Of a DNA stretch of 64,000 nucleotides, positions 1,754-56,228 are shown piece after piece. Position 1 is the first letter of the stretch, and every line of letters begins with the position of its first letter. The DNA comes from Clostridiales bacterium. Its GTDB lineage: Bacteria > Bacillota > Clostridia > Christensenellales > Pumilibacteraceae. The notes beneath the pieces are model-generated. The model saw nothing but the letters and a program-made list of their open reading frames with translations, did no database searches and was not told the origin of the DNA. The stretch is from positions 1 to 64,000 of the forward strand of contig JAFLVG010000006.1 of assembly GCA_022508445.1 (NCBI GenBank), read 5' to 3'. Position numbers and translations under genes: made by a program.

Positions 1754-4642
1754 ATGAGTAACGAAGAGAACGTAAAAGAAGAAGAAATGACTGTCGATAC
1801 GGCCGAATCGCAAGATGCGCCCGAGCAATCGACAGCCGAGCCGCAGGCTGAGTCCGCATCCGAAAACTATGCGGACGTATCGGCTGACGAGCCGACAAAA
1901 GCGAAAGCGCCCGAGAAAGCGCAAAAACCCGAAAAGCCCGCAAAAGCTCGCAACACAAGCACCAAATCGGCGGCAGAAAAGCGCAAGCTGTTCAAGCTCG
2001 TTTATTATCCGATCTTGGCGGTGTTTGTCGCGCTCATGCTCGTGTTTTCGATAGTCGACGGCGTGTACGGATACAATCCCAACGCGTACGGCGACGGATA
2101 CTATAAAGCCGTCAATACCCATATCGCCGAGCTTTCGCAGGCGGCGCGCTCTTCGATGTCGGCGTCCGACAGCGCAGGCAACCCCATCGGTATCGCGTAT
2201 GCACGCGAATACATTTTGAAAACGCTGAAAGAGGGCAAATTTAACGAAGTAGAGGAGCGCAAGCCCGAGGTAGAGGACGACGAAAAAGAAGTCACCGACA
2301 CGGATTGGTACAGGATTGCCGGCGCGGAAGAACCGACCGTGACTCTTCATACATCAGCGTTAACGGCAGACCTTCAACAGAGAATCGGCGCGGACAAGTA
2401 CCTTGTCGGCACGGAAATAACAAATATCATTGCGGCAATTCCTTCGCGCAGAGCAAACGCGAAATCGATAATAATAACCGTTCGGTACGACAGCCGTACA
2501 GACACAAACGGTGCGGCACAGAACGCATCGTTTGTAGCGACCGTTATGCAGAGCTTGATAGAATACGCCAAAGCAGGTACGACGTTCAAGAACGACCTTA
2601 TCGTGGTGTTCACCGAGGACCTCGACTATGCTTACGGCGCGTATGCGTTCTTCGATTCGTTCGTCGGATTGAACGACGCAGTTGTTCGTGCGAAAGTCGG
2701 CATAAGCCTCGACGCTTACGGCAACGCGGGAACGCTCGCGCTCACCGACGCGTCGGGTGCAGGCTTCGATTACATGAACGCATACACCAAGATTTCGGGC
2801 AGTGTGTTCAATTCGTCGGTTGTACCCGACTCGATAGCGGACGAGCTGATTAACAAGCACTCGGTCGCGGCGTTCGGCAAAATACCCGCACTCCAAGTAG
2901 CCGTCCTCGGCGGACTTGACGCGGCACAGTCCACGCTCGACACCGCGGACAATATCTCGCAATCGATTGTTCATCAGCAAGCGCAGTTCGTAAAAGCGTA
3001 TATCGACGAGTTCGCAAATACTTCGGACAGTTTCAAAGCAAACGCGAGCGGGGAGCTTGTGTTCTTCTCGTATCTCGACGGCGGCACGGTAGCCTATACA
3101 AAGGTTGCCGCGTATGTGATAGGCGCACTCATTCTCGCCGCAATAGCCGGCGTGATTGTCGCCATGATACTCAAAAAGACTTTCTCGCTCAAAAAGATGT
3201 TTGTCGCGCTTGGCGTCGAGCTTCTCGTGGTAGCGAGCACGCTTATCGCAATGTTTGCGGCATACTTCCTCGTCACGCTCATGCTGACAGGCTTCGGCGT
3301 ACTTCCCATACACGCAATAACAGAGCTTCGTTACTTCAATGCGGGAATACTGATTGCCGCAATGTTCGTGACGCTCGCCGCCGCGTTCGGATTCACAACG
3401 CTTTATAAAAAGCTGTTCAGAGTGACGTCGTCCGAAGTCGTTCGCGGCACGGCAATGCTGTTCGGCGTCGCTGGCGCGGTAATGAGCTTTGCGGCCCCGG
3501 AGTATTCGTTTATGACGTCATGGCTCGGCCTTCTCATGGTTTTGGTGCTTTTGGCGTCGGTGCTACTTCACAAAATGTTCAAAGCCAAGTTCGGCATGGG
3601 TATGGACCAACTGTACTTGTACGCTGTGCCCGTAGCGCTCTGCCTGCCGCTCATTATGCCTCAGGTATCAATCCTCATGTGGCTACTGCCGCTTACGCTC
3701 ATGCCCGTGTACATGACGGTGTTTACGGCGCTTCTCGGAATCGCCGTGCCGTATCTCGACCGCACGCGAGTCGTATTCGATAAGGTCGCCAAAAAGCTTC
3801 CCAAGCGCACAATCAGAGTGGAGCGCGTTGTGACCGAGAAGGTAGAGGACAGAGCGAAAAAAGGCAAGTTCACAGAAAAGACGTTTAAGCGCGTAGAGAA
3901 AGAAAAGGTTGCAATCAATTACAAAAACTACTTCGGCGTATGCGTGATTGCGGTATTGGGCGTTGTAATCGCGTTGTTCTCGGGCGGCTTCGGAGTGGAC
4001 TTCGACAAGACGCTTACCGGTTATCACACCTACGATCAAGCAATATACAACAACGCGCTTGTCTACGAATGGGAAAAGACCGGCTCGGGCGAGGCGGTAC
4101 AGCGCATAGTCGTAGACGACCTTATGGCATACAAATTCATTCGCTATTCGATCAACGACCTCGAATGGGACAGCGAGAACGGCAGATACAGCAAGAACGT
4201 TCATTATAACTGGCAGGATATTATCAGCGAGCCTACAATCGAAAAGAGCGGCGACGCGTACAGAGTGAAAACTTTCGACGGTGCGCGTTCCAATGTGACG
4301 ATTACAATCCCGTCGGCACGCGCCGTCACAAAGATCACCGTTAAGCAATTGTCAAAGGTGGACGGAGATTACGAAGGATATTTCTACGAATTCAACAGAC
4401 AAGAATCCATAGTCTTGCGAATGCCTTACGGCTTCGGCGACTTCACATTGGAATTTGAAACGACCGGATCGAATCCCACCAAGTTCGAGTACGAGGAGCA
4501 TCGTTACGTGTCGGCAAACGGCGCAGACGGCGCGCTCGACAACGTTGACGAGTGGAACAGAGTGAGAGGCGACTATATCGGCACCGATACGGGCAAAGGT
4601 CTCCGCGGCGGTATTGTCGTCAAATGCACCATAAGCTTGTAA
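1754..4642 (+). CDS. Large membrane protein with a decayed M28 peptidase-like domain
   Basis: 962 residues. An acidic, Ala/Pro/Lys-rich cytoplasmic N-terminus (1-80) is followed by a first membrane segment (about 82-102), an extracytoplasmic domain (about 110-430) that follows the M28 aminopeptidase fold order, and then about nine hydrophobic segments (about 445-750) and a C-terminal beta-rich outer region. The zinc-site motifs are altered: the usual HYDS is VRYDS (243-247), the GAxDN motif is GAAQN (253-257), the EE pair is ED (288-289), while an Asp in ISLDAYGN (about 320) remains. Fxna-like M28 membrane proteases share this layout. I infer a non-catalytic relative with unknown role. RBS GGAGCTGTA precedes the ATG. 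Confidence 0.65.
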   Translation: MSNEENVKEEEMTVDTAESQDAPEQSTAEPQAESASENYADVSADEPTKAKAPEKAQKPEKPAKARNTSTKSAAEKRKLFKLVYYPILAVFVALMLVFSIVDGVYGYNPNAYGDGYYKAVNTHIAELSQAARSSMSASDSAGNPIGIAYAREYILKTLKEGKFNEVEERKPEVEDDEKEVTDTDWYRIAGAEEPTVTLHTSALTADLQQRIGADKYLVGTEITNIIAAIPSRRANAKSIIITVRYDSRTDTNGAAQNASFVATVMQSLIEYAKAGTTFKNDLIVVFTEDLDYAYGAYAFFDSFVGLNDAVVRAKVGISLDAYGNAGTLALTDASGAGFDYMNAYTKISGSVFNSSVVPDSIADELINKHSVAAFGKIPALQVAVLGGLDAAQSTLDTADNISQSIVHQQAQFVKAYIDEFANTSDSFKANASGELVFFSYLDGGTVAYTKVAAYVIGALILAAIAGVIVAMILKKTFSLKKMFVALGVELLVVASTLIAMFAAYFLVTLMLTGFGVLPIHAITELRYFNAGILIAAMFVTLAAAFGFTTLYKKLFRVTSSEVVRGTAMLFGVAGAVMSFAAPEYSFMTSWLGLLMVLVLLASVLLHKMFKAKFGMGMDQLYLYAVPVALCLPLIMPQVSILMWLLPLTLMPVYMTVFTALLGIAVPYLDRTRVVFDKVAKKLPKRTIRVERVVTEKVEDRAKKGKFTEKTFKRVEKEKVAINYKNYFGVCVIAVLGVVIALFSGGFGVDFDKTLTGYHTYDQAIYNNALVYEWEKTGSGEAVQRIVVDDLMAYKFIRYSINDLEWDSENGRYSKNVHYNWQDIISEPTIEKSGDAYRVKTFDGARSNVTITIPSARAVTKITVKQLSKVDGDYEGYFYEFNRQESIVLRMPYGFGDFTLEFETTGSNPTKFEYEEHRYVSANGADGALDNVDEWNRVRGDYIGTDTGKGLRGGIVVKCTISL

Positions 4643-21340: not shown

Positions 21341-22071
21341 TTAGATGCCGAGTTCTTCGACAAGCTCTTTCGCGATAGTGTTGTCTACGGCAAGGTTGTA
21401 GTCGGCACGGCTTTTGAGCGTGCCCGCGTTTTCCATGATGTCTTGAAGCCGCTCGAACGGCGCTTTGTCGAGAACGGGACTCAATGCCCATGCGTTTATT
21501 TCGAGATAGCTCTTGACCGCGGCGGCCGCCGATGTTTCGCTCGTGCCGGGGAAGGATTTGACGAGCGATTTGGCAACTACCTCGGGCGAGTTTTCAGACA
21601 TATATTGATAGCCGCGAAGCACCGCGCGCAAGAACGCTTTTGCGGTATTGTTGTTCTTTTTCAGCCACGATTTCTGTGCGGAAAACGCAGTGTAAGGAAC
21701 TTCGCCGGACGCTGCGCCGACAGACGCTACTATATAGCCCTTGCCGAGAGCGACGTACTCGGACGCAGTGGGCTCGAACATCGTGGTGTAATCTATTGAT
21801 TTATCCGTTTCGAACGTTCCGACCATGGCGTCGAACGCAACCGATGTGTCGAAGTTTTTGTTGTTTGTGGAAACGCCGTGTTTGTTAAGCACCCACTGCA
21901 AAGTCATCGCGGGAACGCCGCCGGGACGACCGGCGAGGATGTGCTTGCCTTCGAGGTTAGCCCAGTCGAAATCGGGTTCGGGTTTGCGCCCCACGAGGAA
22001 AGAGCCGTCGCGCATTGTTAATTGTCCGAATATGACGGGATAGTCGCGCTGTCCCTCCACGTGGCAGTAAA
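21341..22071 (-). pseudogene. C-terminal fragment of an SsuA/THI5-like binding lipoprotein, split by the prophage
   Basis: 242 codons continue the protein whose first 93 residues are encoded at 55774-56055. The fragment begins YCHVEGQRDYPVIFGQL, then FLVGRKPEPDFDW, and carries the second lobe of an NMT1/THI5-like periplasmic-binding fold. As it stands it has no signal peptide; a GTG at 22060 could start a 239-residue product, but without a ribosome site it would be non-functional in uptake. The minus-strand frame stays open through the junction into prophage DNA. Precise excision would restore a 335-residue lipoprotein. Confidence 0.9.
22068..22071. repeat. Left prophage junction (att core TAAA/TTTA)
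   Basis: The only sequence shared by both ends of the prophage in register with the split gene is this 4-base core. Joining GAAGCCACGATTTA from the right end to CTGCCACGTGGAG from here restores an open frame that reads GPEATIYCHVEGQ. Large serine integrases need only a 2-3-base identical crossover core, so a short repeat is expected. Confidence 0.85.
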
Positions 22072-22096: not shown

Positions 22097-22123
22097 AATA
22101 CCACCATATATTGTGGTGGTATT
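22097..22123 (-). terminator. Inverted repeat ending the integrase gene
   Basis: The 10-bp arms AATACCACCA and TGGTGGTATT with a 7-base loop overlap the integrase stop codon, followed on the minus strand by TTTTT. It can end the abi-integrase transcript 25 bases before the attachment core. It may also be part of the integrase-binding arm. Confidence 0.65.
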
Positions 22124-23525
22124 ACTTTACATTCCAATTTATAGTGATTTGGTCGCCGTCTATTACGATTTGCCGTATAAGCTGTTGTAATAGGCGGCGT
22201 TTTTCTTTCTTTGTGGCAGTAGGGTATTCGCGCTGTCGCTGTTTCAGATATTCGATTGATACCGTAGGCGATTTCGCAAGAGTTTGCTTTTCGTTGTCGA
22301 TGACGGCAAGGTTTTTGGATATGCGTTTGTTGATATCGTCGAAGCGCATTGTGTAAGTGTCTTTGTCGATAGCTTCCGCGAGATAGAGATCGAGGATGCG
22401 CTCCTTTTGCTTTTTCAGCTCGCTGTTTTCAAGCAATAGCCTATCAATCGCGCCCGTGCTTGTTTGCGGCGTGACAAATTCTGTAAAGTGCAGATTCATG
22501 ACACGTTCGCTGACGTACTGCTCTAATTCTTCGGTGGGGTACAACTCATTGTCGCACGGCGTTGATCCATGCTCGGCGCTTGCGTATTTCACGCGAGCTG
22601 TGCAGCCGTAAGACGTATAGGTGTATTTTTCCGCACCGTTTATCTTGTGCGCCCTGCGCTTGCCGCAGTACGCGCGGCCGCAGCGTGCGCAGTAAATCAG
22701 ACCCGTAAGCAAATACGGCGTGTTGTCGTGTTCGCGGTGCGAGGTGTTGCGCTTTATAGCCTCCTGCGCTTGCAGATAGGTGTCGTATGATATAATCGGC
22801 TCGTAGTTCGTCGCCTTTATAAGCTCACCGTTATGCTCGAAATAGCCTGCGTACATCGGGCGCTCAATAACGGGCTTGCAGCTCATAGAGTTTGAAAAGT
22901 AGCGCATGTCGGGGTATTTCTCGCGGCAGTAGGCATAGAGCTTACGGAACGAATAGCCCTCTATGTATTTGGCGTACATCTCGCGGATTGCGTCTGCTTC
23001 TTCCGGTACGATCTCCAAGCGGTCACGCTCTTTGTCGAGCTTGTAACCGAAAGGGGATTTGCCCGGGCAAGTGTACTTGCCGCTGCGTGCGCGTGCGGTT
23101 TTACCCATTTGCATGCGCTCTACGATAGTCTCGCGTTCGAGCTCCGAGAATGTTGCCGACATTTTGAGCGCGGCTCTGCCGAACGGGGAAGATAGGTCAA
23201 GATTTTCGTTGAGAGAATAGAGCGTGACGGAATATTTGTCGAACAGCTCCACAAGCTCCAAGACGTCTTTAACGTGGCGCGACAGACGGTCGAGCTTGTA
23301 AATGAGAACGATATTAATGCGCTTGTTTTCGACGTCGGCAATAAGCCGCTCCATAGCAGGACGGTGCAATGTTTTGCCGGAAAAGCCCTCGTCAGAGTAA
23401 ATGTCCGCAACCTCATAAGACTGTGCGGTGGCATACGCCGACAGTTTCTCTTTCTGCACGCCGATGGAATAACCTTCGGTCGCTTGTTCGAGTGTACTCA
23501 CTCTGCAATAGATAGCGGCCTTCAT
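22122..23525 (-). CDS. Large serine recombinase (phage integrase)
   Basis: 467 residues. The resolvase domain (1-150) has YCRVST with nucleophile S10 and the DRLSR motif. A recombinase domain (about 170-270, GKSPFGYKL) and a zinc-ribbon (YCARCGRAYCG, then later Cys) follow, then a coiled coil (about 365-450). It integrates and, with a directionality factor, excises the prophage. The gene lies directly at the attachment site. Its ATG overlaps the stop of the abi gene (ATGA), so the two are probably translated together. No directionality factor could be named; the early small HTH or hypothetical genes are candidates. Confidence 0.95.
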   Translation of the reverse strand: MKAAIYCRVSTLEQATEGYSIGVQKEKLSAYATAQSYEVADIYSDEGFSGKTLHRPAMERLIADVENKRINIVLIYKLDRLSRHVKDVLELVELFDKYSVTLYSLNENLDLSSPFGRAALKMSATFSELERETIVERMQMGKTARARSGKYTCPGKSPFGYKLDKERDRLEIVPEEADAIREMYAKYIEGYSFRKLYAYCREKYPDMRYFSNSMSCKPVIERPMYAGYFEHNGELIKATNYEPIISYDTYLQAQEAIKRNTSHREHDNTPYLLTGLIYCARCGRAYCGKRRAHKINGAEKYTYTSYGCTARVKYASAEHGSTPCDNELYPTEELEQYVSERVMNLHFTEFVTPQTSTGAIDRLLLENSELKKQKERILDLYLAEAIDKDTYTMRFDDINKRISKNLAVIDNEKQTLAKSPTVSIEYLKQRQREYPTATKKEKRRLLQQLIRQIVIDGDQITINWNVK

Positions 23526-24442
23526 GATAAGAAAGATTGCGGCACGCCCATTTTGTCCAAAATAGACTGATTAGGGATGCTATGTATGTATGTAAAAAAC
23601 TCCTTAACGGTGTTCTTAAAGTTCTTGATAAAGCGTGAAAACTCCAATGGCTTAATAAAAAATGAAAAACAACTTAAAGTACCGAATAATGATTGAATAT
23701 TTGTAACGTTTCCTAAATGCCTAATTGTGAAACTATTTGGCTTAATATTAGTGGGAAATGTGTTAAAATCGTAAATGCGCTGATCATGTGCACACTTATT
23801 ACGTAAGAACACTAATACGCTTAATGCATTTTGAATTGTGTCTGGGAATAATTTAACACCAGATATTTGCGATATCTCTACAGCAATGCTGTCTCTTACT
23901 TTTGATGGCAAGCATTCGTACATTTTGCTCAATGTCCCAAACGATATAATGTTAATGAATACCCAAATGGGTACAAAATTGTATTTGCTTTTGTAATGAA
24001 GAATCATTGGATTAGACTTTGATATAGCATAATCAAGTTCATCGGATAGTTTAGTTATTAGTTGAGATGTTTGTACTGTACGTCTCGGATTATAATTTGC
24101 AATATCCAAATAGAAATCTATTGCATTATTTTGATTCGCATACGCAAATTTATGCGCTAAAACGGATTTGAATGTACGCTCTATCAAAGTTAGATAATGA
24201 GATAAATCATGACGCAAAGTTTTATCGAATTGATGCATGGCGTATATCTCATCGAAAGTTGTACCTAAAATATATTTTTCGGGATTGCTACCTTTTAGAA
24301 TAAAAAGGTCCTTGTAACCATTAATAATATTATAATAATTATGTCGCATCAATGCTTCTTTAGCTGCATCCACATCAAATATAATCATGCCGCGATTAAG
24401 CAGTATGTTGATCTGTTCATCATAGGTTTTGTAGTCTAACAT
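23522..24442 (-). CDS. Abi_2 (AbiD/AbiF) family abortive-infection protein
   Basis: 306 residues. The family start is clear (LDYKTYDEQINILLNRG and HNYYNIINGYKDLF), and the HEPN-type RX4H motif is intact as R214-NKCA-H219, followed by DQRIYDF. HEPN proteins of this kind are usually RNases, and AbiD/AbiF members protect lactococci from phage. AT-rich compared with the integrase, which suggests separate origin. RBS AGGAG lies at 24449-24453. A short structured RNA with its own promoter lies immediately upstream. Likely role: lysogen defence against other phages. Confidence 0.85.
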   Translation of the reverse strand: MLDYKTYDEQINILLNRGMIIFDVDAAKEALMRHNYYNIINGYKDLFILKGSNPEKYILGTTFDEIYAMHQFDKTLRHDLSHYLTLIERTFKSVLAHKFAYANQNNAIDFYLDIANYNPRRTVQTSQLITKLSDELDYAISKSNPMILHYKSKYNFVPIWVFINIISFGTLSKMYECLPSKVRDSIAVEISQISGVKLFPDTIQNALSVLVFLRNKCAHDQRIYDFNTFPTNIKPNSFTIRHLGNVTNIQSLFGTLSCFSFFIKPLEFSRFIKNFKNTVKEFFTYIHSIPNQSILDKMGVPQSFLS

Positions 24443-24453
24443 AGTATTCTCCT

Positions 24454-24522
24454 AAAAAGAAAGCGCCCACGATGGGCGCTTCTTCGTTGACGGGCCCCGA
24501 AAGCATCCGTCAATCATTCAAC
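24454..24522 (-). ncRNA. Structured RNA upstream of the Abi_2 gene (abiF-RNA-like)
   Basis: A consensus promoter precedes it: TTGCAT (24552-24557), 17 bases, then TGG-TAATAT with an extended -10 (24529-24534). The predicted RNA of about 69 nt holds a 7-bp hairpin (24487-24493 with 24507-24513, 13-base loop rich in G and U) and a GC-rich terminator hairpin (24461-24469 with 24473-24481) followed by five U. The abi start codon is 12 bases past the U-run. From memory, a conserved motif called abiF RNA has been described upstream of this gene family; a covariance search is needed to assign it. Confidence 0.65.
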
Positions 24523-24647
24523 AGTAATATATTACCATACGCCCACAAAAAATGCAACTGTTTTTGAAAAAAAAGTCAACTTTTAGTGTAAAAAGTGCAC
24601 TTTTATATTTCGCAGGCTACTATTTCGCCTGCATTATATCTTAAAAC

Positions 24648-25253
24648 TCATCTCACATCGCTTTGAAACGCGATAGCTTTGGCGAGAATGCGGATTTGCT
24701 CTAACTCTTCGCCAATATACACAAACGGCTCGTACTTCGGGTTTTCCGCCTGCAGTATGAGTTTTTTCTTTTCGGGGTAGTAGAATACGCGTTTGAGCGT
24801 TGCCGAGTCATCGATGAGCACGACTGCTATATCGCCGTTGTCCACCATGCTTTGTTTGCGACAGAACACGATATCGCCGTCCATGATGCGCGCGCCTGTC
24901 ATACTGTCGCCCTGCGCTATCAAGCAGAAATCGGCATTTATATCTGTTCCTGCCATTACATAGCTTTCGCGATCTTCATCGGCAAAGATAGGCTCGCCGC
25001 ACGCGACTTTTCCGAGTACGGGAATACGACGCGTGGCAATAGGTGATACGCCGGGAATGGAGTAGATGGTTTTACTGTCACTTAACCCAAGAACACCCTC
25101 TATCGCTTGCACGGTGTCAACTCTGGGAGCGTATGTAGCTCCTCGAAAGATGTCCTTAACGGTGCTAATGCTTATGCCGGTGCGCTCTGCGATTTCTTCG
25201 AGAGTGAGTTTAAGCTCCTTTTTTCGTGCTTTCCATAGTTCTAAATCGTACAT
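24648..25253 (-). CDS. CI/LexA-like prophage repressor (HTH + S24 peptidase)
   Basis: 201 residues. An N-terminal XRE helix-turn-helix (about 10-58: LTLEEIAERTGISISTVKDI) is joined to an S24 Ser-Lys peptidase domain with S117 in GDSMTGARI and K154 in ATLKRVFYY. The probable self-cleavage region is VACGEP (83-88). RecA-stimulated autocleavage would release lytic promoters. It is divergent from the Cro-like gene, with operator-like GTACGA repeats between them. RBS GAGG precedes ATG 25253. Confidence 0.93.
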   Translation of the reverse strand: MYDLELWKARKKELKLTLEEIAERTGISISTVKDIFRGATYAPRVDTVQAIEGVLGLSDSKTIYSIPGVSPIATRRIPVLGKVACGEPIFADEDRESYVMAGTDINADFCLIAQGDSMTGARIMDGDIVFCRKQSMVDNGDIAVVLIDDSATLKRVFYYPEKKKLILQAENPKYEPFVYIGEELEQIRILAKAIAFQSDVR

Positions 25254-30625: not shown

Positions 30626-32712
30626 AAGGATATCAAGACAGTTTATTCAACGAGTTAATCGTAGACAATTTCGCGGGCGGCGGCGGAGCGAGCGTTGGAA
30701 TAGAGCTTGCTGTCGGTCGCCCGATAGATATAGCGGTCAATCATGACGAAGATGCAATCTCTATGCACAGAGTAAACCATCTATTTACGGACCATTACCG
30801 CGAGGACGTATTCGTAATCGATCCCGTAAAGGTTACAGGCGGCCGTCCTGTCGGCATTGCGTGGTTTTCACCCGACTGTAAGCATTTTAGCAAGGCAAAG
30901 GGCGGCAAGCCCGTAGACAAAAAGATACGCGGTCTTTCATGGGTAATTCTTAAATGGGCGATGACGGCAGTCGCACCGCGCATCATCCTTATGGAGAACG
31001 TCAAAGAGATACAGACGTGGGGACCACTCATAAGCGTAGATGGGAAACAGCGTCCCGATCCTGCGAGGGCAGGTGAAACGTTCAAAGGCTTTATCGCTAT
31101 GCTTACAACAGGCATAAGCAAAAGTCATCCCGCGTTTGCCGAAGCGTGCGAGTTTTTGAAAATAGAGCCTTATAGCGTGGACGGTGACAAGCTATCTCGC
31201 GGATTGGGTTATAAGGTCGATTTTCGCGTATTAAAAGCGTGTGATTACGGCGCTCCGACGATACGCGAGAGATTCTACCTTGTCGCAAGAAATGACGGAA
31301 AGCCTATTGTGTTTCCCGAGCCTACACACGGCAAGGGAACGGGTTTGAAACCGTACAGGACGGCAGCGGAGTGTATTGATTGGAGTTTGCCTTGTCCTTC
31401 TATATTCGGGCGCAAAAAGCCGCTCGCAGTCAATACACAGCGCAGGATCGCGCGTGGGCTTGATAAGTTCGTTATCAAGAATCCGAAGCCGTTTCTCTTG
31501 CAAATGAATTTCGATAACGCGCCGCAGGATGTCGAAAAGCCGATGAGTACGCAAACGGCGGTCAATAAGCACTTTGTTGTCAACCCGTCCATCGTTCCGA
31601 TAGGCTACGGTGAACGCAAAGGACAAGCTCCACGCGTGAACGATATCGCTGAACCGTTAAGCACGGTCGTATCAAGTTGTAAGCAAAACCTTTGCGCACC
31701 GCAATTAGAGCCGTACATAATGAGCAACAACGCGAATAATGTGCCGAAAGGAACTAATGAGCCTGTGCCTACGGTAACTACCGGCAACCGCAATTATTTG
31801 TGTGCGCCGTCGCTTATTCAGTATCATTCCGAGCAGGGTGATAGAGAAGTGCGCGGACAGAAAGTCGACGAGCCAATTAACACGGTAGACACGCAACCGC
31901 GTTACGGCGTAAACGCATGCTATTTGACAAAGTATTTCAGCGGAGACAGGGTAAACGCTTCGGCGGCAGACGCGCCCAATCCGACCGTTACAGCGCACGA
32001 TCACAGCGCAGTAGTAGCTGTGCATTTGTCGAGCAGATACGGTGACGGTAAAGATGGTCGCGGAAGTAGCGCGGAAAGTCCGGCGCCGACAATTATAGGA
32101 ACGAATCACGAGCATCTTATTGCGGCAGATATAGTCCATTATTACAGCGGAGCCGACCACGCAAGCAAAGCAGACAGTCCGCTTCCGACCGTAACCACAA
32201 AGCCGCGCCACTACTTGACCGAAAGCCACTTATGCGTATTGCGTAACAACACGGATTGTAAGAGCTTAAATGAGCCGATGCCGACACTTACCACTTCGCC
32301 CGGTCACATGGCACAAATCGTAACGTATCTGCAGAAGATAGACAGCACGCAAGACTTGGGACATTGGAACGAGGTGCGCGCGCTACTCAACACATACGCG
32401 GGTTACAATATCGCTGACGATGAGATTTTGATTATCGAGATCGACGGTATGCCGTACTTCATTTCGGACATCGGAATGCGAATGTTAAAGGCGCGTGAGC
32501 TTAAACTCGCGCAGGGTTTCCCCGAAGATTACATAATCGACATCGAGCAGTATATCGGCAAGAAGTACAGCGAGGCGAAGCAGATAGCGCGTTTAGGTAA
32601 CGCCGTTTGTCCGCCCGTTGCTACCGCGCTCATTCGGGCGAATTGCCCCGATATGGCGTATAAGAAACCGTTACAGACGGTTGCAGAACTAAACGACGTG
32701 ATATGCGCGTAA
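30622..32712 (+). CDS. C5-cytosine DNA methyltransferase with repeat-rich target region
   Basis: 696 residues, long for the family. Motif I DNFAGGGGASVGIEL (15-29), motif IV with catalytic C86 in WFSPDCKHFSKAKG, motif VI IILMENVKE (121-129), and motif X-like GNAVCPPVATALI near the C-terminus. Between about 295 and 570 are eight repeats of about 28-37 residues built on (D/N)EPxPTVTT...Y. It methylates cytosine in DNA, probably protecting phage DNA from host restriction. It overlaps the initiator gene by four bases. No restriction gene is nearby. Confidence 0.92.
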   Translation: MKGYQDSLFNELIVDNFAGGGGASVGIELAVGRPIDIAVNHDEDAISMHRVNHLFTDHYREDVFVIDPVKVTGGRPVGIAWFSPDCKHFSKAKGGKPVDKKIRGLSWVILKWAMTAVAPRIILMENVKEIQTWGPLISVDGKQRPDPARAGETFKGFIAMLTTGISKSHPAFAEACEFLKIEPYSVDGDKLSRGLGYKVDFRVLKACDYGAPTIRERFYLVARNDGKPIVFPEPTHGKGTGLKPYRTAAECIDWSLPCPSIFGRKKPLAVNTQRRIARGLDKFVIKNPKPFLLQMNFDNAPQDVEKPMSTQTAVNKHFVVNPSIVPIGYGERKGQAPRVNDIAEPLSTVVSSCKQNLCAPQLEPYIMSNNANNVPKGTNEPVPTVTTGNRNYLCAPSLIQYHSEQGDREVRGQKVDEPINTVDTQPRYGVNACYLTKYFSGDRVNASAADAPNPTVTAHDHSAVVAVHLSSRYGDGKDGRGSSAESPAPTIIGTNHEHLIAADIVHYYSGADHASKADSPLPTVTTKPRHYLTESHLCVLRNNTDCKSLNEPMPTLTTSPGHMAQIVTYLQKIDSTQDLGHWNEVRALLNTYAGYNIADDEILIIEIDGMPYFISDIGMRMLKARELKLAQGFPEDYIIDIEQYIGKKYSEAKQIARLGNAVCPPVATALIRANCPDMAYKKPLQTVAELNDVICA

Positions 32713-55752: not shown

Positions 55753-55775
55753 AGCCACCAATGAGGTGGCTTTTT
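55753..55775 (+). terminator. Terminator at the right prophage end
   Basis: AGCCACC (55753-55759) pairs with GGTGGCT (55765-55771), followed by TTTT that runs into the att core. Confidence 0.85.
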
Positions 55776-56055
55776 AAATCGTGGCTTCGGGGCCCATTAG
55801 TCCTATATCGGCGGAGCCCGAAATAACCGATGTCATTACTTTGTCGGCGCCGCCGCCGTTTGACAGTTTGATTTTGATATTCTCGTCGTCGAAATAGCCG
55901 TTATTTATGGCTATGTACAGCGGCGCGTAGAAGATCGAGTGTGTGACTTCGCACAGCCTGACCGTGGTTTTGCCGTCGTCGTTGCACGCAGACAGCGACA
56001 GCGGACACAGTGCAAGCACGAGTGCGGTGAGTAGAGCGGTGAGTTTACCTTTCAT
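55774..56055 (-). pseudogene. N-terminal fragment of an SsuA/THI5-like binding lipoprotein
   Basis: 93 residues from ATG 56055 (AAGGAGG upstream; a longer frame to 56094 lacks this). A lipoprotein signal (MKGKLTALLTALVLALCPLS then LSAC lipobox) is followed by the first beta strands of an NMT1/THI5-like fold (VTHSIFYAPLYIAINNGYFD and MGPEATI) and then the stop made by the att junction. The remaining 242 residues are at 21341-22071. In the lysogen only a short secreted fragment could be made. Confidence 0.92.
55775..55778. repeat. Right prophage junction (att core TAAA/TTTA)
   Basis: The partner of the core at 22068. On the minus strand the host frame reads GAAGCCACGATTTAA here: the phage base after TTTA turns a Tyr codon (TAC) into a stop (TAA). 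Confidence 0.85.
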
Positions 56056-56228
56056 ATGTTCCTCCTTGGACAGCCGAACGTTTTTCGGCATCAAATATAT
56101 TCCATTGTATGCAAGGCGGCACGGCGTAGTGAGTGCAACTTACGGTGCAAAAATTTTCTTATGCGGCGTAAATAATTGCTATTTTGCTTTTATTGTGTTA
56201 AAATGCCATACATAGAGGAGTATACGCA

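Follow-up and report, generated by a model that had tools for sequence, protein, structure and literature searches.

A prophage of a Clostridiales bacterium carries an abortive-infection (abi) gene directly behind what looks like a small RNA gene, which raises the question of whether this RNA is a gene in its own right, to which family it belongs, and whether it acts as partner or antitoxin of the protein encoded behind it. The original prediction, made from the DNA letters of the window (the whole stretch analysed, 64,000 nucleotides from contig JAFLVG010000006.1), had answered with a structured RNA and an AbiF-type HEPN protein. Our analysis indicates that the locus, in the lysogeny region of the prophage, is very probably an AbiF-type module in which an RNA and a protein form a toxin-antitoxin pair that serves abortive infection.

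Genes for a terminase, a portal protein, an exonuclease and an annealing protein are present in the prophage, which is about 33.7 kb long (roughly 22,061–55,773). An NMT1/THI5-like substrate-binding gene is split by it, and because the two halves of that gene flank the prophage (C-terminal part 21341–22060, N-terminal part 55774–56094) we place the insertion within this gene. The abi gene lies in the lysogeny region between the repressor and the recombinase, a usual site of prophage defence genes. Its stop codon overlaps the start of the serine recombinase gene (ATGA, 23522–23525); in homologous locus L001 the two genes are 12 bases apart.

The abi product belongs to the Abi_2 family, with a domain score of 142.7 bits compared to a curated cut-off of 25.6, and R214, N215 and H219 are invariant across seven homologues, yielding the R-x4-H active site of the HEPN fold. 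A phmmer search identified one solved relative, PDB 8vz6 (E 5e-14), an AbiF dimer in complex with its ncRNA, and aligned the RN-x-C-x-H sites of the two proteins. AlphaFold2 modelling from seven homologues (pLDDT 88) gave a structure that matched 8vz6 with a Z of 23.6 across 277 residues (2.5 A). The next-best structural matches of the model were Cas13d (Z 7.3) and Cas13b, in the Z range 5–7, as expected from the published placement of AbiF in the ancestry of Cas13 (PMC12165695, PMC12737573). Foldseek matches apart from 8vz6 were unrelated helical proteins and were set aside. The AbiF-type HEPN gene is thus borne out by family, fold and catalytic motif.

On the minus strand a promoter, a hairpin, a terminator, a ribosome site and the Abi_2 gene follow one another inside 120 bases (Table 1). 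The predicted +1 of the RNA is near 24522 and the terminator ends 11 bases before the abi ATG. The predicted extended −10 promoter with 17-bp spacing, the hairpin, the terminator with its T-run and the abi ribosome site are all present on this strand. The hairpin had been described as a 7-bp stem with a 13-base loop; the stem is present and the loop has 13 bases (AUGCUUUCGGGGC), but it is not plain. Both RNAfold and RNAalifold (nine homologues) fold it into AUG, a 3-bp tip CUU-UCG-GGG (CUU/GGG paired, loop UCG) and C, placing the tip behind a 3x1 internal loop. As read from the sequence, abi can be transcribed only if a polymerase that started at the RNA promoter, or at a site beyond it upstream, reads through the predicted terminator. 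Judged against the consensus the window promoter is weak, with 7 of 12 matches, and falls under the threshold of the promoter scan, and the window RNA folds 2.3–3.1 SD better than shuffles, so that single-sequence statistics are merely suggestive. Upstream of the promoter is an AT-rich stretch (AAAAGTGCACTTTTTACACTAAAAGTTGACTTTTTT, 24565–24605, minus strand), alike in locus L003 despite 40% protein identity, that is possibly a regulator site.

Table 1. Features of the abi module in the window and abiF-like hairpins in complete phage genomes.
Feature	Position	Strand	Evidence or source
abiF-type gene for a 306-aa Abi_2/HEPN RNase with RNKCAH as active-site motif (R214, H219)	23522..24442	-	PF07751 E 2.1e-41
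RNA promoter: -35-like TTGCAT 24557-24552, spacer exactly 17, extended -10 TGG-TAATAT 24537-24529 (TGGTAATAT)	24529..24557	-	sequence and homologues
Class A RNA hairpin, conserved 5' end UGUUGAAUG (AGUGAUCG in most relatives)	24477..24523	-	model R1 match 50.8 bits (as training member), covariation
Outer stem, 7 bp, TTGACGG 24513-24507 / CCGTCAA 24493-24487; 3x1 internal loop; 3-bp tip	24487..24513	-	
Rho-independent terminator hairpin, stem GAAGCGCCC/GGGCGCTTTC and TTTTT, between RNA and abi	24454..24482	-	sequence
abi ribosome binding site AGGAG	24449..24453	-	sequence
abi start codon ATG	24442	-	
Serine recombinase, probable integrase	22122..23525	-	PF00239 E 2e-40
Prophage repressor, HTH_3 and peptidase S24, upstream neighbour of the abi module	24648..25253	-	
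Unannotated abiF-like hairpin	L151 2001-2027 (around 32191-32217 of KF669652.1)		Bacillus phage Grass
Unannotated abiF-like hairpin	L156 2001-2027		Bacillus phage SBSphiJ5
Unannotated abiF-like hairpin	L172 1501-1525		Enterococcus phage EfV12-phi1
Unannotated abiF-like hairpin	L152 511-535		Enterococcus phage MF-DL
Unannotated abiF-like hairpin	L155 2001-2029		Lactobacillus phage P1
Unannotated abiF-like hairpin	L153 2001-2024		Staphylococcus phage SapYZU04

Comparative evidence is decisive that the predicted hairpin is real. Searches with the single protein gave one relative in viral contigs and one in genome contigs, so the homologues derive mainly from searches of genomes. The layout is kept in L001 (a virus contig, 57% protein identity) and L003 (40%) with entirely different stem sequences; the order of elements is identical in these loci, in L004 and in more distant loci, where the stems differ and the unpaired letters are the same, and homologues whose proteins are only about 30% identical still keep the layout. 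From nine homologues, with no structure supplied, MAFFT and RNAalifold recovered the hairpin with compensatory changes in 8 of 12 pairs. We built a covariance model, R1, from nine loci including the window, and the window RNA belongs to the resulting class A by its R1 match and its conserved, covarying 12-bp hairpin.

The R1 search found independent class A copies among about 1,100 other genomes. It matched 15 of 391 genomes from the class, 5 of 398 from the phylum and 56 of 348 from one family; in genome G000 there is just one class A copy. In an alignment of 84 distinct copies, 91% of the cells are paired and compensatory changes occur in 144; shuffles gave 38.7 and slid controls no more than 33. 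This alignment was fitted to the structure, whereas the RNAalifold alignment of nine homologues was not. An Abi_2 frame lies directly downstream in 61 of 97 copies examined (52/88 without the nine training loci). Among 60 abi-linked copies, 56 have a promoter-like −10 at a fixed distance, the second motif base being the fourth to ninth base after the −10 and nearly always the seventh or eighth, and 54 have a T-run at most 60 nt downstream of the RNA. The fixed position of the −10 identifies the conserved AGUGAUCG as the predicted transcript 5′ end. The anatomy originally proposed, an RNA with its own promoter and terminator and an abi gene reached by read-through only, is therefore confirmed and conserved across dozens of homologous loci.

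Some class A loci vary this arrangement. In L078 abi is preceded by a tandem pair of class A hairpins (247–359), and in L128 abi is flanked on both sides by a class A hairpin (3434–3480 and 4500–4546). The tip of the terminator hairpin is often CCUGCGGG in class A loci (e.g. L011, L041 and L044) and resembles the first-hairpin tip CUUGCGAAG/CCUGCGAGG; possibly the terminator hairpin is a second protein-binding hairpin.

The RNA family previously associated with these genes is Rfam RF03085, a short hairpin RNA directly before Abi_2 genes that, like class A, has an outer stem and a small inner stem. A match to this abiF model had been anticipated for the window RNA and did not materialise: there was none at the gathering cut-off (37 bits), nor when E was relaxed to 10. 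RF03085 likewise does not match L009, a class A homologue, or any class A locus scanned at Rfam gathering. The conserved letters differ, RF03085 having ACGCCUCU..AAUGCG.ACCAAG and class A AGUGAUCG..ACUUGCGAAGCC, with no cross-match at E up to 10. The original prediction would have been undermined if homologous loci held no match to abiF-type RNAs. The outcome is mixed: the Rfam match is indeed missing, but the homologous loci do share the window RNA, which identifies it as a member of a different family. On these sequence comparisons class A is a second abi-linked RNA family, undescribed and missing from Rfam. Sub-threshold Rfam matches (ROSE, MicC, SraG etc.) were rejected as chance. The best of them, ROSE (E 0.11), would make the element a temperature-sensing 5′ structure, a reading we consider exceedingly improbable since its 23.8 bits are far under the gathering threshold of 45, the Shine-Dalgarno sequence follows the terminator and lies outside the stems, and L009 has no ROSE match.

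Upstream of other Abi_2 genes in the same bacterial class we found RF03085 (L006, L026, L028 and L031) and other hairpin types (L008/L018/L029 and L020/L025). When searched with R1 with filters off, the hairpins of L008, L018, L020, L023, L025 and L029 gave chance-level scores, and only that of L023 was correctly placed (E 1.8). Mapped onto a tree built from 69 AbiF proteins, the RNA classes take 8 changes compared to a shuffled mean of 20.8 (0 of 200 shuffles as low), and class A takes 3 label changes compared to 18.9 (0 of 500). One class A entry, L098, has a broken reading frame, and its long branch carries no meaning; with L098 omitted, class A would have arisen about twice, or once with one loss. 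The RNA classes thus cluster with AbiF protein clades, as expected of cognate partners.

The closest parallel is AbiF-Cd/RCd22 of C. difficile phi027 (PMC12373285), a prophage Abi_2 HEPN toxin with the same order of SigA-type promoter, structured ncRNA, terminator, RBS and abi and no second promoter. RCd22 is about 100–130 nt long and most of its transcripts end at the terminator; AbiF is toxic in C. difficile and RCd22 neutralises it by binding, in cis and in trans (PMC12373285). RCd22 differs in having two RF03085 motifs of 33–35 nt, whereas the window has one hairpin of another family and a separate terminator hairpin; the tandem hairpins of L078 resemble the two motifs of RCd22. Because the window RNA is not an RF03085 member, transfer of function from RCd22 relies on gene order and protein homology. 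The second parallel, PbAbiF/AbiFr (PDB 8VZ6), binds an ncRNA, with one RNA per protomer (PMC12737573), and shares with the window the fold and the aligned HEPN motif, a likeness read here from the protein alone and at 20% identity. Type III toxin-antitoxin systems (ToxIN, AbiQ, CptNI and TenpNI) have the same order of antitoxin RNA gene, terminator and RNase toxin gene, but their toxin fold is unrelated and their antitoxins are tandem repeats, whereas the window RNA is a single hairpin (two in homologue L078). As in AbiF-RNA toxin-antitoxin systems, the window has an ncRNA gene directly upstream with its own promoter and a terminator before abi.

By analogy with these systems, a role of the class A RNA as partner or antitoxin of AbiF is supported. 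The promoter would make a hairpin RNA of about 70 nt, mostly ending at the terminator before abi with a predicted 3′ end near 24454–24458, and occasional read-through would provide the abi mRNA, leaving the RNA in excess of the toxin. The hairpin, as in published AbiF systems, would bind the HEPN dimer and block its RNase centre. An infecting phage, for instance, could disturb transcription or the RNA; the toxin would then be freed, RNA would be cut and the cell would stop.

The same layout could serve as a cis-only attenuator, the hairpins just limiting transcription into abi and the recombinase with no contact to the protein. The terminator stands directly before the ribosome site, so every abi transcript must cross it, and RCd22 also acts in cis (PMC12373285). 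The 47-nt hairpin upstream of the terminator, however, keeps invariant unpaired letters and covarying stems that a plain terminator does not need, it persists in copies without abi and, in one phage lineage, without the T-run, and the published AbiF RNAs work in trans; we therefore regard a purely cis-acting role as improbable. Because the abi stop overlaps the recombinase start, the attenuator also precedes the prophage's own recombinase gene, and it could affect prophage excision too. Alternatively, the nuclease may need the RNA as a cofactor or be activated by it in a guide-like way, which would make the RNA a forerunner of the Cas13 crRNA, as the Cas13 ancestry of AbiF and the second-best fold matches might suggest. 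In both AbiF systems for which data exist the RNA is an inhibitor (PMC12373285, PMC12737573), and the loci inspected have no variable spacer-like segment beside the hairpin, making an activator very unlikely. An antitoxin remains our preferred reading of the class A RNA.

Class A RNAs also occur as orphans. Among 13 virus contigs carrying class A, Abi_2 is absent from the whole record in 10. In L058 (201–262) and L059 (5597–5658) the RNA is part of a phage tRNA array, with tRNA-Met ending a few bases ahead of it and tRNA-Arg following; both hairpins are kept, the T-run is lost and there is no Abi_2 on the record. The array of L059 has eight tRNAs, and in L132 a class A RNA precedes two tRNAs. 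The orphans in L133 (3911–3951), L134 (9096–9142) and L135 (8865–8911) lie shortly upstream of the small terminase gene on prophage or virus contigs without Abi_2. Thirteen class A orphans still covary (19 double-changed cells versus 5.2). Several chromosomal orphans are clearly toxin-deleted remnants (L065, L075 and L141), and chromosomal orphans were therefore not counted towards decoys; the phage orphans do not resemble such remnants. A very strict RNA pattern search of viral contigs found nothing, as did blastn with the class A consensus in named phages and plasmids, so that class A is so far known only from genome assemblies and IMG/VR.

The RF03085 core was found in 15 virus contigs of up to 146 kb (L136–L150), with no Abi_2 nearby or on the whole record. 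Eleven of the 15 reach the Rfam cut-off, 10 through the core copy and L148 through a tandem neighbour; L148 has two RF03085 copies in tandem, as L137 and L139 probably do. The outer stems of the virus copies covary (43 of 50 pairs versus 29.6; 0 of 2,000 shuffles). In the control set from cellular genomes, Abi_2 lies directly downstream of 10 of 15 RF03085 copies. Five of the 15 virus loci are located within or next to tRNA genes (L142, L143, L146, L148 and L150), and L141, also among the 15, is a remnant that has lost its toxin gene by deletion.

A blastn search with the RF03085 core matched about 100 named phage records, eight of which we inspected; a whole-record search in six of the eight found no Abi_2. 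The hairpins are mostly in tRNA clusters or between terminase subunits: in a tRNA cluster in Bacillus phages Grass and SBSphiJ5, just after tRNA-Gly in Enterococcus phage EfV12-phi1, between terminase subunits in Enterococcus phage vB_EfaS_MF-DL, and just before tRNA-Gly and between terminase subunits in Lactobacillus phage P1, where the inner stem CAC/GUG replaces CGC/GCG. Core matches in Staphylococcus phage SapYZU04, Sulfurimonas phage SNW-1 and Streptococcus phage Javan129 were also inspected. Only SNW-1 (33.3 bits) and MF-DL (31.1 bits) come near the Rfam cut-off of 37 bits; the other six copies are weaker claims, based on near-exact cores and matching stems.

The simplest reading of the phage orphans, we infer, is that they may be decoys against AbiF. 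Solitary phage copies of a defence-system RNA act as mimics in pseudo-ToxI of phage PhiTE (PMC3475682) and in RNA anti-CRISPRs (PMC10651486); those mimics are experimentally tested, whereas the AbiF-type orphans are known here from sequence. The broader proposal is that phages captured class A and RF03085 RNAs as free-standing genes, often in tRNA arrays or between terminase genes, and that these RNA decoys hold the host AbiF RNase during infection as a general RNA-based anti-AbiF, to which we assign an even chance. That cyanophage S-CREM1 carries an RF03085 copy, and that Rfam lists three from phages, had been noticed without this reading (PMC9964418). Our literature search returned no proposal that AbiF antitoxin RNAs standing on their own serve counter-defence; its reach did not extend to the main AbiFr paper (Cell 2025) or to the 2017 paper on the abiF motif, and we do not claim priority.

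These results suggest that AbiF proteins, the closest known kin of Cas13 ancestors, work with more than one hairpin RNA family, and they provide a covariance-ready definition of a family absent from Rfam. The phage orphans are the most interesting lead. Their presence in complete genomes of Bacillus and Lactobacillus phages that are tractable in the laboratory makes the counter-defence hypothesis directly testable, and decoys would offer a reason for the odd non-tRNA hairpins in phage tRNA arrays.
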